The translations under genes and the position numbers were made by a program. From Patescibacteria group bacterium (GTDB lineage: Bacteria > Patescibacteriota > Gracilibacteria > UM-FILTER-43-11), in assembly GCA_018825145.1 (NCBI GenBank), contig JAHJFD010000003.1, positions 1-64,000 of the forward strand: a DNA stretch of 64,000 nt, in the 5' to 3' direction. Under the pieces are notes generated by a model. That model did not search any database. It saw nothing but the letters and a program-made list of their open reading frames with translations, and had not been told where the DNA came from. Below are positions 23,798 to 30,918 of this stretch, piece by piece (position 1 is the stretch's first letter; each line of letters starts with the position of its first letter).

Positions 23798-24100
23798 ATG
23801 GCTGATGATTATCAATTTGATGATGTAGAATCCAGTGCAGATTCTGAAACTGAGGGCAGTGGAGGCGGTAAAGCAGATGCCGGTTTTGGCGACAATGGAA
23901 ATGGTTACGCTTCCGAATTATTTTCCAAACAAATTAAGGCGAAGTTCAGGACTTTCTTTGTTGACCTGAAAGAAAGTTCAAATGGCAAATTTATTAAAAT
24001 CAGTGAAAAAAGTCATGGCCGTAAGAGTACCATTATGATGGACGCCGAGGATATTCCTGTCTTTATTGAAGCTCTTCAGGAGGTAAGCAAAAAATTGTAA
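23798..24100 (+). CDS. PUR-alpha-like (DUF3276 type) nucleic-acid-binding protein (100 aa)
   Basis: After an acidic, glycine/serine-rich, probably disordered first 37 residues comes a single PUR repeat: ELFSKQIKAKFRTFFVDLKE, then a short turn with SNGKFIKISEKS, then a strand and the final helix DIPVFIEALQEVSKKL. PUR-family proteins bind single-stranded DNA or RNA and usually dimerise. Family membership is recognised from the FSK...A..RTYF-VDLKE...G.FLKI pattern. It has its own promoter (TTGCCA-16-TATAAT) and a leader of ~28 nt. Its cellular role in this organism is unknown. Confidence 0.8.
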   Translation: MADDYQFDDVESSADSETEGSGGGKADAGFGDNGNGYASELFSKQIKAKFRTFFVDLKESSNGKFIKISEKSHGRKSTIMMDAEDIPVFIEALQEVSKKL

Positions 24101-24122: not shown

Positions 24123-25688
24123 TTATTTTGCCATGTCAATAGCCCTTGTTTCTCTGATCACCTGGACTTTGATGGTGCCGGGGTAGGCCAGTTCTTTTTC
24201 AATCTTTCTGGCGATTTCATGTGATAGCTTAATCGCGGCCATATCGTCAATTTTGTCTGGTTTAACAAATACGCGGACTTCGCGGCCGGCCTGAATGGCG
24301 TAGGCTTTTTCCACTCCGTCAAAAGAGGTGGTAAGGTTTTCCAGGTCCCTCAGTCGCTTGATGTAGGTTTCCACTGTTTCGCTTCGGGCACCCGGTCTGG
24401 CGGCTGAAATAGCATCAGCGGCCATGATAACAAAATCTTCGGCAGTGTTCAGCGTGATTTCTTCATGGTGAGCTTCCACGGCATGCACAATGGCATCCGG
24501 CATACTGTACTTTCTCAAAATATCGGCCCCAATCAGAGCGTGGCTGCCCTCGATTTCGTGATCGACAGCTTTTCCGATGTCGTGCAGGAATCCGGCGATT
24601 TTAGCCACTTGCGGGTCGGCTCCTATACTGGCGGCCAGATGGGCTGACAAAAAGCCGACTTCCATGCTGTGCTTAAGAACATTCTGGCCATAACTGGTTC
24701 GGAAACGAAGTCTGCCAATAATCTTAATTAAGTCGGGATGCAGGCCGGTAATGCCCATTTCGAAAGCGGCTTTTTCACCAAATTCTTTCATCATCTGATG
24801 AACCTGCTCTTTTGTTTCCTCAACCACCGTTTCAATTCTGGCCGGGTGAATACGGCCGTCTTCCACCAGTTTTTCCAAGGCTCTTTTCGCCACATAGCGG
24901 CGCACCAGATCAAATCCTGAAATCATGATGGCGTTGGGGGTGTCATCGACAATGACATCTACGCCAGTCAGATGTTCGAAGGCGTTGATATTCCGGCCTT
25001 CTTTACCGATTACCCGTCCCTTGATGTCATCGTTGGGAAGTTCGACAATAGTTTGTGTGGACTCCGATGTAACATCAGAGGCTAGCTTCTGGATGGCCTG
25101 TGAGAGAACATTAGTGGCTTCTTTTTGCGAATTTTCCTTGATGTCTTCGTTCATCTTTTTATAGTGCGAAACAAGTTCATCTTTATACTCGCGCTCCATG
25201 TTGTTTAAAAGCATTTGCCTCGCTTCTTCCTTGGTCAATTTAGTGATGCTGGCCAGTTTATCTTCCTGTTCTTTGTAAATTGCCTCCAGTTTATCTTCCT
25301 CAATTTTCAGATTCTCCACTCTTTTTTCGTAGTCCAGTTTGTTTTTTTCAACTTCAGATGTCTTTTTTTCCAGAAGATCTTCTTTAGAGATCAGGCGCTC
25401 TTCCTGTTTTTCAAGCTGTCGCCTCATGGCCTGTTCTTCTTTTTTTGCCTCTTCGACGATTTCAAGGGCCCGGTTTTTGGCATCGAGAATTTTTTCCTTA
25501 AGCTTGGTTTCTGCCACGGCTGCTTTTTGCTCAATTTCGACCAGCCTCTTCTGTGCCTGACTTATCTTTCTTTCGTTTGCTTCTTCAATTTTTTTGAGGT
25601 AAAGGCTACCTTCAATCTTAAAATAAAAATAGACCGCGGCGGCACCTATTATGATGCCGATTGAAGTGAAAATAATGGTGCTCAACAT
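24123..25688 (-). CDS. rny: ribonuclease Y (521 aa)
   Basis: A membrane-anchored endoribonuclease that starts mRNA decay. The expected layout is all present: an N-terminal membrane helix (1-21), a long charged coiled coil (~25-190), a KH RNA-binding domain (~210-270, VIGKEGRNINAFE) and an HD hydrolase domain with FLHDIGKAVDHE and the downstream HHEE metal ligands. The length matches the family's usual 510-525 residues. The likely promoter is 200 bp upstream, giving a long leader. It is tail to tail with the PUR gene. Confidence 0.95.
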   Translation of the reverse strand: MLSTIIFTSIGIIIGAAAVYFYFKIEGSLYLKKIEEANERKISQAQKRLVEIEQKAAVAETKLKEKILDAKNRALEIVEEAKKEEQAMRRQLEKQEERLISKEDLLEKKTSEVEKNKLDYEKRVENLKIEEDKLEAIYKEQEDKLASITKLTKEEARQMLLNNMEREYKDELVSHYKKMNEDIKENSQKEATNVLSQAIQKLASDVTSESTQTIVELPNDDIKGRVIGKEGRNINAFEHLTGVDVIVDDTPNAIMISGFDLVRRYVAKRALEKLVEDGRIHPARIETVVEETKEQVHQMMKEFGEKAAFEMGITGLHPDLIKIIGRLRFRTSYGQNVLKHSMEVGFLSAHLAASIGADPQVAKIAGFLHDIGKAVDHEIEGSHALIGADILRKYSMPDAIVHAVEAHHEEITLNTAEDFVIMAADAISAARPGARSETVETYIKRLRDLENLTTSFDGVEKAYAIQAGREVRVFVKPDKIDDMAAIKLSHEIARKIEKELAYPGTIKVQVIRETRAIDMAK

Positions 25689-26010
25689 AAATTAGGTAAG
25701 GTTATCAGTTAACCTCAAAGCTAATAAAGTTTGATGAAGCGGCTTTTTTCGGAACGTTTTAATTTTTACTTTGTCACTTGTGTAAACAGTTCAGATGAAA
25801 AGAATATGTTCAGGTTAACGCTCGGATTTTTTCTGACTTCGGCTTTAGTACTTTTAGCTTGAGACTAACGGTAAGTAAATTTCAATATATAAGTATTATA
25901 GAATCACCTATTTTATTGTCAAATAATACTATTTGGCCAGTTTAAGCGCTTAAATTTTTTGAGCACCAGTTTAGCCCTTCTTTCCACCTCCTTTTTTTTG
26001 CAAAAAGCGC
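25689..26010. other. non-coding region: long rny leader and divergent promoter spacer
   Basis: No convincing gene on either strand. The minus strand from ~25888 to 25689 is the predicted ~200-nt rny leader. It includes an AGGTTA/TAACCT inverted repeat (about 25697-25713) close to the start codon. 25923-26010 separates the rny promoter from the ncRNA promoter. Confidence 0.6.
25895..25922 (-). promoter_or_regulatory. promoter of rny
   Basis: TTGACA (25917-25922), 16-bp spacer, TATAAT (25895-25900): both boxes match the consensus fully. The predicted start near 25888 leaves a ~200-nt untranslated leader, long for this window. Confidence 0.75.
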
Positions 26011-26039
26011 TTGTCAATCTGTAATAAATTTGTTATAAT
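26011..26039 (+). promoter_or_regulatory. promoter of the structured ncRNA
   Basis: TTGTCA (26011-26016), 17-bp spacer, TATAAT (26034-26039). The predicted start is near 26046, and no start codon with a useful frame follows. Confidence 0.75.
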
Positions 26040-26045
26040 ATATTG

Positions 26046-26454
26046 AAAAGTCTGGAATATTGCTCCTTTAAATTTAGGTTCAGGGTGAGAGAAACCTGTC
26101 TGGGAAATAAAAATAAATTTTATTTATTTTGTGGCTCGCGGACTTAATTCGCCACGGCGAATTAATGTGGGCTGATTAATGTTCTTAGGCAGGTTTCTCT
26201 CACTGATGGATGACGTTATCATACTGACAAAACAGAAATAAAAGTCTGCTTATCACTGCCTAGCCCCCTTAGGCGTGTGAGGGCGGACATAATGTTTCCG
26301 CTTCGGCGGATATGGGTTTTGTTGGAGCTTAGTGGTCACCGCATTTGCTTTTAGTAGGTGTGCTGATTTCTAAGATTTAACTGCCGTTCTTTCAGTGGGA
26401 GAACTAAAAAACCTCGGTGCTGTCCCCGCTTCGGCGGGGCTCCTGGGGTTTTTT
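26046..26454 (+). ncRNA. structured non-coding RNA of ~410 nt, identity uncertain
   Basis: Strong promoter, strong terminator, no coding frame and much self-complementarity. A 14-bp perfect helix joins 26085-26098 (GTGAGAGAAACCTG) to 26190-26203 (CAGGTTTCTCTCAC), extended by three more pairs. It encloses a TTAATTCGCC/GGCGAATTAA hairpin and an A/T hairpin. Further 3', GCCTA/TAGGC with a C-rich loop facing a downstream GGGC can form an H-type pseudoknot (26258-26284). A UUCG-capped TCCGC/GCGGA hairpin follows. Scattered matches to RNase P RNA landmarks exist: GAAAAGTCTGG near the 5' end, GATGGATGAC at 26205, ACAGAA and GCTTAT near 26232-26252. The specificity domain and a closing P1 are not evident. 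The identity could be a divergent RNase P RNA or a new family. Confidence 0.7.
26406..26454. terminator. strong bidirectional terminator after the ncRNA
   Basis: The inner stem CCCCGC-TTCG-GCGGGG (26424-26439) sits in an outer stem AAAAAACCTC (26406-26415) with GGGGTTTTTT (26445-26454). T runs occur on both strands, so it also stops transcription of the small minus-strand gene at 26503. Confidence 0.9.
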
Positions 26455-26502
26455 AGCATACAAAAAAAGCCCACAAGATGGACTAGTCGAATATTAGATA
26501 TA

Positions 26503-26793
26503 TTAGGCAGCCTGATCAATTATATTGTTGTCATTGGCTGATCTTGTATTAGCTGTGGGGTAGATTTCTCCGAGACTTTCGTTTGCAAGTTCTGTAGGAT
26601 ATTGAGTTACAGAAAAACCGTCGCCCTCACGTTCAACCGCCAGTCTGACAGCACCGCGGATGTCGCTGATAACCCGGGGCATACCTTTGGCTTTTACTGC
26701 TTTCAGGACATCGGCTTTACTAATGATTCCCCGATAATCTTCCAGCTCAATCAGATCGAGGAGTTCTGTCAGGGAGAGGTTTTTTGGGCTCAT
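26503..26793 (-). CDS. small protein of unknown function (96 aa)
   Basis: Not recognised. The first two thirds look like a compact helical domain: SLTELLDLIELEDYRGI, then KADVLKAVKAKGM, then a helix with VISDIRGAVRLAVEREG. The last third (FSVTQYPTELANES...) is likely unstructured. There is no signal peptide. A clear own promoter (TTGATT-17-TATAAT) and a shared terminator show that it is a real single-gene unit with a ~15-nt leader. The helix-turn-helix-like spacing hints at a small regulator, but I cannot assign a family. Confidence 0.65.
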   Translation of the reverse strand: MSPKNLSLTELLDLIELEDYRGIISKADVLKAVKAKGMPRVISDIRGAVRLAVEREGDGFSVTQYPTELANESLGEIYPTANTRSANDNNIIDQAA

Positions 26794-27054: not shown

Positions 27055-30000
27055 ATGAAAAGAACATTTGCCATCATTTTTTCCCTCCTGCTATTTTTTT
27101 CTCAGGTCCATTTTGTGGTATTTGCGGAGGATTTATTAGAATTTGAGCATGAAGTCGTCAATGAAACGGAACCTGCAGTTCAGATGGAGCCGGAAATTGA
27201 GATACCTCAGCCTGAAGGAGAAATCGTACCTGAGTCAGAGCCAGAGTCGGAACCTGAACCTGAACCGGAGCCAGAGTCGGAACCTGAACCAGAACCCGAA
27301 CCTGAACCTGAACCTGAACCAGAACCAGATTTGCCCTCAGTTTTTATCAATGAAATTCTGGCGGATCCGGTCGAAAGCGATGCCGAGAACGAATTTATCG
27401 AAATTTATAATGCCGGGCCTGAGGCAATCGACCTTCGTGGATGGCAGCTTGATGATGCTAGGGCCGATGACGGAGCGTATGTTTTTTTGAATGAGGAACT
27501 CGATTATATACTGGAACCCGATGCATATTTGGTTCTTTATAGGCCGGAAACGAAAATTACTTTGAATAATGACACAGATGCTGTGCATCTTCTTGACCCC
27601 AATGGGAAGGAAATTGATTTTTATGAATTCGATTCGCCTGGGGCCGGTTTTTCGTGGGGCAGAAGCCCGGAAAATGCCGAAGAATGGATTACGTTTAAAA
27701 CTCCTACACCGGGATTCGCGAATGTAATTGAGCCTAATGGCCTGCCAGTTGCCGTGATTGATATCCAAAAGGATACCGGTTTGATGAAGCTTAATGTTAC
27801 TGGCGCGAATAGTTATGATCCCGATGGCGATAATCTTAGTTTTTTGTGGGAGTTCGAGGAGGGGGTTTTTGATGAGCGGGAAAATCCGTTAATTTATGAA
27901 TATTTAACGTCCGGTGAAAAGTTAGTTCGGCTGACGGTGGCTGATCCATATGGTGCGGTTGGTTTGTCTGACATTATTTTTATTGCTACAGAAGAATCCG
28001 GGGGCGAACCGGGACTTGAGCCTGACCCTGACCCTCAGCCTGACCCTCAGCCTGACCCTCAGCCTGACCCTCAGCCTGACCCTCAGCCTGACCCGGAACC
28101 AGATGAACAACCGCCTTTGATTTTCCTGAATGAAATTCTGGCGGATCCGGTCGAGAGTGATGCGGAGAACGAATTTATCGAAATTTATAATGCGGGAACT
28201 GAGGCGGTTGATCTTTTCGGCTGGAAGCTTGATGACGCGCGGGCGGATGATGGAGGCTATGAATTCCTGAATGCGGAAATTGATTACATGTTGGAGCCCG
28301 ATGCGTATTTGCTTCTTCTCAGGCCGGAAACGAAAATTACTTTGAACAATGATGCCGAAACAGTCACTCTTTTTGATCCGAATGGGAATCAGATTGATTC
28401 CTTAGAATTTGAGTCCCCGGGCAGTGGTCAGTCCTGGGGACGAAGCCCGGAGAATGCTGAAGAATGGATTACTTTTAAGCCTCCCACACCGGGCTCGGTT
28501 AATGTTATTGAACCCAATTTTCCCCCTGTAGCGGTTATTGAAATCCAAAAAGATACCGGTTACATGAAACTAAATGTCACAGGTGCGAACAGTTACGATC
28601 CGGATGGCGACAAGCTCAGTTTTTTGTGGGAATTCGGGGAGGGGGTTTTTGATGATCGCGAAAATCCGTTGATTTATGAATATTTGACGCCCGGAGAGAA
28701 GGTGGTTAGTCTGACCGTCATTGATAATCATGGAAATATCAATGTTACTGAAATCACTTATACGGCTACTCCCAAAGGTTCGGGCGGCGGTGTTGAGGTG
28801 CCTACGCTGTCTTTTCCATCGTACTCTTTAATCAACGAAATCATGCCGGCCCCGGACGGCAAAGATGACGAAAATGAGTGGATCGAACTTTACAACAAGA
28901 ACAGTTTTACTATCGATCTATCCGGCTGGTATTTAGATGACGCCGCGGGGAAAAGCAGTCCCTTCAAGATTCCGGACGGCACGGTTATTTCGCCGAATTC
29001 TTATGCTCTTTTTTCTGAACCGGGCTTAGGACTGTCTTTAAAGAATTCCGAAGATATGGTTCGTTTGCTGGATCCTAATAAGAACGTAAGTCAGGAGGTA
29101 TCGTATTTTGATGCCAAAGAAAACTGGAGCTACGCCAGACGCGCTTATGATTTATTTGAATGGACGCCGCTTTTTACACCCGGATATTTGAACACGTTTC
29201 CGCCGCCTCCAAAAAGTTATCAATTGGGGGATTTGGTTTTTGAAAGCGTTCTGCCCAACCCCGAGGGGGAGGATTCGGGAAATGAAAAAATTATTCTGGC
29301 CAACAAAACCAACCAAAAAATAGATCTGATGGGGTGGACCATTGCTGATGCAAGCGGCGCTGAAAAGGCCATGCCAGATACTTCCGTGCCAGCCAGTGGA
29401 AAGGCGATGATTCTTTCTTCCGAGTTTAAACTTTCCCTCAACAATTCGAACGAAAGCCTTACCTTGTTCGATCCGACCGGTAATCTGATCGATGAAATCA
29501 GATGGAAAAATTCTGTGTCGGGAGGATGGCTTTTTAATCCGGATTCACTCAAAGATGGTTTGGAAGCCGAGGTGGTGCGAGTGGTTGATGGTGACACATT
29601 GGTTGTCAGATTTGATGAAAAAAAACTGACTGTCAGGTTGATTGGAATCGACACACCTGAAACGGTTCATCCCTTTAAGCCCATTGAATATTACGGCAAG
29701 CAGGCTTCGGCGTTTCTTTCTAACACTCTTTCAAACCAGTTTGTCAGGCTTGAATTTGACGCAAATAAAATCGACAAATATGGTCGCGTGCTGGCCTACG
29801 TGTATTTGGGTGATGACATGATCAACAAAAGAATTCTAAGGGAAGGTTACGGGTACGCGTACACCCGCTTCCCTTTCCGATATCTGGATGAATTTGTTCG
29901 TCTGGCGGACGAGGCGCGTGAGGCTAGAATTGGGCTTTGGCAGAACCAAAAAGTGGCTGATCTGATTGAAAAAATTGTGGAGGATGAACTTTTGTTGGAA

Positions 30001-30918
30001 GAAGATGAGGAATTATTGGAAGATGATTTATTACTTTTGCTTGAAGAAGAATTAGAGGATGAGATTTTGTTGGAAGAAGATTTCGTAGCTGAAGAGGTGG
30101 TAGATGAATCGATGCCCGATTGCTCTTCCGACTTTTTGAAGATCGATTCTTTTCTTCCAAATCCGCAAAAGGGCGAGGCGGTTGAGTACATTCGCCTTAT
30201 CAACACAGGTTCCGAAAAAGTTTGTCTGCAGGGGTGGAAGCTTGATGATCAAACCGATGGCGGATCCAAGCCTTTTTCAATCAAGGGTGGCGCCATTGCC
30301 GCCGGCGGGGTGAGGACTTTCAGAAAACAGGAAACAAAACTGGCCCTGAACAACAGCAACGATTGCGTCAACCTCATAAATCCCGATGGGCTGAAGGCCG
30401 ATCAGATTTGCTATGAGAAAACGCACAAGAATGAAGTATTCACCCATGCAGGCGGGGATTGGGTGCCCAAGCCTAAAGCCAAAAAGAAGACTCAGACTTC
30501 CGGCAAAACAGTTCGCTTTAGTTTCGGGCGCGATCTGATTTCTTATCAATCCGATCTGCCTACCAATAGTTATGTGGGTGCTGTTTCGGATATTGATGAA
30601 GAGTCCAAGCTTATCACCATGACACTCGAGACGGGTCAAAGTGTGGCCATTTCTTATGCAAGTTCTCCTGTTAACATTAGAGTGGTCAGGCAGTTGATTG
30701 ATTTTTCCAGACAGGTGGAAATTCACGCTTATGAGTCCGAAACTTCCGTTAATCTTTTATCTATCGAACCTGTCCGTGAGAAATTAACAGTGTCTCAGGG
30801 GCAGGGGGCTGGTGGGCACGCCACGAGGATCATTTTACTCTTTGGTGTACTTCTGTTATTATCGCTTCCTTTAATTTTTAAAGTATGTCCAGACGTCTTT
30901 GCGAAACTACGCAAATAG
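27055..30918 (+). CDS. membrane-tethered surface protein with lamin-tail domains, PKD domains and a thermonuclease domain (1287 aa)
   Basis: Order of parts:
- signal peptide (1-24);
- Glu/Pro repeat linker (~57-92);
- lamin-tail domain (LTD) 1 and a PKD domain (~95-310);
- Asp/Pro/Gln repeat linker;
- LTD2 and PKD2 (~354-570);
- LTD3 and LTD4 (~585-820);
- staphylococcal-nuclease domain (~838-963);
- acidic Glu/Leu linker;
- LTD5 (~1020-1140);
- C-terminal membrane helix with a basic tail.
The nuclease domain keeps the catalytic set: Asp in VVDGDTLVV, Arg in [11 protein letters not shown] with its Asp and Glu, and the Arg of [12 protein letters not shown]. It should cut DNA or RNA outside the cell using Ca2+. 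LTD1-PKD1 and LTD2-PKD2 are a recent internal duplication. A role in scavenging nucleic acids is inference. Confidence 0.9.
28017..28103 (+). repeat. 12-bp tandem repeat coding PDPQ units
   Basis: A 12-base unit (CCTGACCCTCAG and near copies) runs about five times in frame and encodes repeated Pro-Asp-Pro-Gln, a stiff linker between two domain pairs. A similar Glu/Pro repeat lies at 27226-27330. Both are coding, and likely variable in length between strains. Confidence 0.9.

Follow-up and report, generated by a model that had tools for sequence, protein, structure and literature searches.

What is the structured RNA that appears to be encoded next to rny in the tiny genome of a Patescibacteria group bacterium? 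An earlier note on the 64,000 nt of DNA analyzed here, in the following called the window, had proposed either a reduced or rearranged RNase P RNA or a new RNA class. The region lies on contig C47 of genome G000 (1.16 Mb, 93% complete), and all genomes compared are MAG assemblies. The RNA, named RNA-A, is a predicted independent transcription unit on the plus strand (26011-26456), which comprises a promoter, a boxA-like site, a hairpin module, a 3' domain, and a terminator, and which is flanked by rny (24123-25688, minus strand) on one side and by a small convergent ORF (26503-26793) on the other. The sigma-70-type promoter (TTGTCA-17-TATAAT with an extended TG, 26011-26039) matches the consensus at 11 of 12 positions, in agreement with the earlier note; the pattern TTG..TGnTATAAT is present in all 14 aligned RNA-A loci. 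The unit ends with a symmetric, bidirectional-looking intrinsic terminator (AAAAAACC..GGTTTTTT, 26404-26456), which is kept in both relatives of the same genus, G001 and G002. The predicted fold is far more stable than expected (z = -8.6, none of 100 shuffled sequences was equally stable), and a search for an ORF revealed none, the longest stop-free run having 46 codons. Promoter, terminator, lack of an ORF, and conservation were upheld, and the long-range helix, which had been claimed to have 17 bp, was even found to be longer, with about 23 bp (26081-26103 / 26183-26205). An H-type pseudoknot between a CCCC loop and a downstream GAGGGC was not confirmed: the sequences of the window and of G002 would allow it, but in G001 the GGGC is replaced by ATGG. 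What the earlier note had overlooked is the boxA, the repetition of the long hairpin as a tandem module in the genomes of relatives, and a second, competing partner for its 3' arm.

The proposed relationship to RNase P RNA could be addressed directly. With Rfam 15, cmscan of the whole window at the gathering threshold yielded two tRNAs and nothing else, a scan of the locus (25950-26520) with E values up to 10 gave chance-level matches only, and the RNA-A loci of the relatives had no Rfam match. RNA-A is about as long as bacterial RNase P RNA (RF00010) and has a few of its short phrases, and RNase P RNAs that have diverged are known from this radiation (PMC8172020). However, the RNase P models did not match the locus with E values up to 10, and the search for another rnpB, which had been suggested as a check, uncovered a complete gene on a different contig of the same genome (C33:30015-30374, RF00010, 181 bits, E = 2.5e-59). 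In addition, relatives of the same genus do not keep the phrases, and conservation of CR-I and CR-V, as expected of an RNase P RNA, is not seen: G001 and G002 lack both GAAAAGTCTGG and GCTTAT, their version of GATGGATGAC is changed, and ACAGAA is kept solely within an A-rich element. RNA-A as the RNase P of the cell is refuted, and its derivation from an RNase P RNA by reduction or rearrangement is extremely improbable. A tmRNA (RF00023) was sought at the locus, but no tRNA-like domain, tag ORF, covariance model match, or ARAGORN match was found. 6S RNA (RF00013) has a long hairpin with an internal bulge, as has RNA-A, but its model does not match the locus, and the true 6S RNA of G000 is encoded elsewhere (C51:14323-14485, 50.9 bits). 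A riboswitch or attenuator was also discarded, because the unit terminates before any gene on its strand is reached, and the next ORF is convergent. A search of open-access papers did not reveal a report on an RNA of this kind for the lineage.

Homologs of RNA-A were collected at the DNA level from G001 and G002, with 71-82% identity, and more distant ones with a covariance model. The model, R1, was built from the hairpin modules of 10 genomes and matches 15 of the 18 genomes of the family; matches outside of the training set were obtained in G017 (8e-20), G013 (3e-13), G010 (2e-10), G006 (3e-7), and G012 (4e-4). The searches covered 353 genomes of the class, and R1 gave marginal matches in just two of the 335 genomes from other families. 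Several candidates were discarded, i.e., reverse-strand DNA matches in G004, G006, and G048, which are AT-rich and due to chance, an R1 match in G240 (E = 0.003), which is an A-rich palindrome just upstream of the 16S gene, and a contig scan with GTGAGAGAAACCTG, which was uninformative with 119 unrelated chance matches. A search of phage DNA gave no match.

The hairpin module of the window (26081-26205), identified by its R1 match and by covariation, is present in one copy. It has a 5' arm (26081-26103), which is predicted from the fold and from covariation, and a 3' arm (26183-26205). In the family, a module is composed of an outer stem (CAGUGAGA/UCUCACUG, of which many covarying versions exist) and a second stem (CUGCUUAG/CUUAGGCAG), followed by an asymmetric internal loop with a nearly constant strand GGAAAACAAAAAUCAAAAC, and a variable apical part lies beyond. 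The most constant unpaired part across modules is an A-rich internal-loop element (GGGAAATAAAAATAAA at 26102-26117, family form GGAAAACAAAAAUCAAAA), which is found in nearly all of them. In relatives up to five modules occur in tandem (two in G009, three each in G014 and G017, four in G005, and five in G011). Single-module versions are as frequent as arrays, and thus dosage may not matter. The contigs of L159, L155, and L157 (G003, G006, and G007) end within or just before RNA-A; tandem modules may therefore break assemblies, and the module counts in these genomes are lower bounds. A palindromic element, GTAGTTTACTACGGAGAATGGATC, which resembles a mobile REP/MITE-type repeat, occurs in apical loops or in the 3' domain, and its placement differs between genomes (L160 in G011, L161 in G014, L153 in G009, L196 in G013, and L197 in G017).

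When 20 modules were aligned, 20 of 26 base pairs were found to change on both sides. The covariation is thus very strong, with 60 compensatory cells, compared to 19.8 (sd 3.4) in shuffled alignments, a value that was not reached in any of 500 shuffles, and the signal was abolished when the pairing partners were slid against one another. A degenerate, REP- or MITE-like repeat array without RNA function would be in accord with the tandem copies, with the palindromic elements in some module loops, and with a broken remnant in G016. However, promoter, boxA, 3' domain, and terminator are conserved, the copies are found at a single locus, and the compensatory changes are located inside of the modules, so this explanation is very unlikely. 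A CRISPR-like array was considered because boxA leaders occur there, and it was rejected because the repeats of RNA-A are long covarying hairpins. The suggestion of a new RNA class is borne out by a real gene with covariation and by the lack of an Rfam match even at permissive thresholds, and RNA-A is almost certainly a real new family of noncoding RNAs.

In nearly all loci of the family RNA-A is divergent from rny, and the unit is often much longer than that of the window. The neighbor encodes RNase Y with the Pfam domains RNase_Y_N, KH_1, and HD. G013 holds a second RNA-A copy with four modules away from rny, and the regions upstream of rny in 24 genomes outside of the family contain no such RNA. 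In G016 (L165, C130:1170-1380) the promoter and one decayed module abut the 3' end of a neighboring ORF, and 3' domain and terminator are missing. This is a remnant or a misassembly; thus, either RNA-A is not strictly essential or the assembly is wrong. The 5' UTR of rny (25689-25960, minus strand) contains an inverted repeat, CCTCAAGTTAATAA ... TTATTAACTTGAG, the arms of which are 120-175 bases apart and which is found in several genomes of the family; it is possibly an autoregulatory element of RNase Y. Some families of the class have in-frame TGA codons in rny, which resembles UGA-recoded Gracilibacteria and may place the class there. Beyond rny, a PurA-type ssDNA/RNA-binding protein is encoded (23798-24100, plus strand; PF04845, 29 bits at a cut-off of 25), and the gene has the same position in G001, G002, G010, and G014. 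The region adjoining RNA-A on the other side (27055-30918) encodes a protein of 1287 amino acids that combines five lamin-tail domains and PKD domains with an SNase-type nuclease domain and with acidic PE repeats of considerable length.

The leader of RNA-A looks like an rRNA transcription signal, composed of a promoter and a boxA. The putative Nus antitermination site GCTCCTTTAAA (26062-26072) agrees with the published consensus GYTCTTTAANA, which is gamma-proteobacterial (PMC5725501), and RNA-A has one of the features of boxA-led transcripts, a boxA consensus near the 5' end. Boxes of this kind follow TATAAT in 14 of 16 RNA-A leaders, compared to 0.2 expected from dinucleotide shuffles, with a pattern that was written after inspection of the leaders; variants include TGATCTTTAAAA, TGTTCTTTAACA, TGATCTTTGAAA, and similar sequences. 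The rrn leader of G000 itself carries TTGTTCTTTTGAAT, an approximate boxA match. In the pre-rRNA of E. coli it has been proposed that boxA holds the nearby boxC strand for pairing with the trailer (PMC10250234), and the 5' arm of the first module of RNA-A occupies the position that corresponds to boxC. A strong promoter, an early boxA, and a downstream strand for long-distance pairing are common to RNA-A and to rRNA leaders (boxB-boxA-boxC) and other boxA transcripts. Unlike the leaders of rRNA operons, RNA-A does not precede an rRNA; the unit has a terminator of its own, and the RNA is 388-892 nt long across the family.

The 3' domain (26206-26403) could be aligned in 12 genomes and is well conserved in the genus. 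It contains a second A-rich element (GACAAAACAGAAATAAAAGT, 26226-26245), the 5' side of which pairs with GTTTTGTTGG at 26316-26325, and shortly before the terminator a strand that finds its complement in the last 3' arm of the modules (CAGTGGGAG, 26393-26401). A comparison of arm pairings thus assigned two partners to this 3' arm, its own 5' arm and the pre-terminator strand. In RNA-As with several modules the best partner of a 5' arm is its own 3' arm in 16 of 19 cases, and therefore the modules seem to be individually closed hairpins. The pre-terminator strand, GGUGRGAG in the family, pairs best with the 3' arm of the last module in all five untied arrays, and therefore two helices compete. 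The two alternative pairings are comparable in energy at nearly every RNA-A locus. For the competing helix 96% of the cells are paired, and its covariation is modest (p ~0.01) because the last 3' arm is nearly invariant. In G006 the pre-terminator strand continues directly into seven T.

A second RNA, RNA-B, was discovered via a marginal R1 match in G050, at a locus with promoter, boxA, and hairpin. The DNA of this locus is conserved in 16 of the 21 genomes of its own family. R2, a model of the RNA-B core, matches 69 of the 353 genomes of the class at E values up to 0.05, and matches below 1e-4 are found in about 50 genomes from ten families. In most of the loci that were read RNA-B is divergent from gmk, and in many cases ssb is located beyond it. 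The genome of the window has RNA-B (L297, G000:C65) in addition to RNA-A, and RNA-B is present in 12 other genomes of the RNA-A family; further loci described are L283-L295, L230-L237, and L268-L278. RNA-B has no match in Rfam. It is an unannotated structured RNA of about 350-580 nt with a class-wide distribution, which contains the boxA, the strands CTCCCTACTTTTC / GGTAGGGAG, and AAAACAAAAACAAA elements. Its 3' hairpin has a CCACCUCUGA / CAUGUG internal loop, and several families share a GGUG-CACC pseudoknot. The two RNAs resemble one another in the form of the promoter, the position of the boxA, the arm hairpin that follows it, the A-rich AAAACAAAAAYAAA, and a strand complementary to the 3' arm. 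They differ in sequence and in the 3' half, and RNA-B has a single module, gmk as neighbor, and is found class-wide. The best E value of a profile search between them was 0.013, with an alignment confined to the boxA and the A-rich element, and R2 gave only noise on the RNA-A loci. Therefore, homology of the two RNAs beyond the leader and the A-rich element is not claimed.

What could be the function of RNA-A? The explanation that we favor as a whole is a stand-alone structured RNA with an rRNA-like promoter and boxA leader and with modular protein binding, which we regard as plausible, yet somewhat short of probable; the narrower proposal of a Nus-assisted modular protein-binding RNA is slightly more tentative still. 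NusB/S10 would bind the putative boxA and keep RNA polymerase processive through the untranslated RNA, and, by analogy with boxA and boxC in pre-rRNA, might also help the long-range arms to pair. Each module would offer its A-rich loop as a site for one protein, and RNA-A would act as a modular sponge or scaffold, the capacity of which would scale with the number of modules. The last module might be opened or closed when the terminal strand pairs with its 3' arm. First candidates for a partner would be RNase Y, which has a KH domain, and the PurA-type protein near rny; the latter could be a partner, judged by proximity alone, which may be simple synteny. A borrelial PUR protein has been reported to prefer RNA (PMC3764826). 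Hfq was not found in the 18 genomes of the family, and CsrA was not found in them above the cut-off, which excludes two classical partners. Sponges of the CsrB/RsmZ type are stand-alone RNAs that end at a terminator and in which stem-loops for protein binding are repeated a variable number of times. RNA-A shares the repeated stem-loops and the terminator, its protein binding being putative, but in place of a GGA hairpin loop it repeats an A-rich internal loop, which is set in a long stem, and it carries a boxA in a family without a CsrA above the cut-off.

Three other explanations deserve attention. If RNA-A were a trans-acting regulator, the freed 5' arm or the loops would pair with mRNAs, gated by the competing helices, and the comparable energies of the two pairings of the last 3' arm are in accord with it. 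However, the lack of Hfq speaks against this, the arms covary freely from one module to the next, as would not be expected with a fixed mRNA target, and the most conserved unpaired parts are A-rich. This explanation is rather unlikely, and the same is true for a regulator or substrate sponge of RNase Y. The latter would explain the location divergent from rny, and the synteny in nearly all loci of the family, the inverted repeat in the rny 5' UTR, and the KH domain are in agreement with it, but the second copy in G013 is located elsewhere, an association with rny is not seen outside of the family, and RNA-B adjoins gmk. Somewhat more weight can be given to a lineage-specific paralog of RNA-B, which as an RNP would carry out a variant of its core function rather than act as a sponge. 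It would account for the shared architecture, including the AAAACAAAAAYAAA element and the downstream complementary strand, and R1 scored the 5' hairpin of RNA-B in G050 and also in G049; the weak profile match, the failure of the R2 core model on RNA-A loci, and the coexistence of both RNAs in one genome count against it, so that it is still doubtful. Equally doubtful is a combination with the favored modular protein binding, namely, that the class has a Nus-assisted RNP system with RNA-B as the deeply conserved core and RNA-A as its modular relative in one family, which would have one to five A-rich protein-binding elements and might be a decoy or amplifier for the core protein. The recurrence of the A-rich element in RNA-B is in line with the favored explanation.

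Few noncoding RNAs are both large and structured, and several of these proved to be catalysts or to assemble cellular machines. RNA-A is a previously undescribed one from a poorly known group of tiny bacteria. Noncoding RNAs were explicitly excluded from a survey of boxA targets (PMC5725501), and RNA-A is a concrete and testable case of this group. The variable number of modules represents a natural series for mapping what a module binds. A lineage with tiny genomes, which lacks Hfq and CsrA, spends 388-892 nt on this RNA and equips it with a strong promoter and with what looks like an antitermination leader of the rRNA type; the class to which it belongs keeps a second large RNA, RNA-B.
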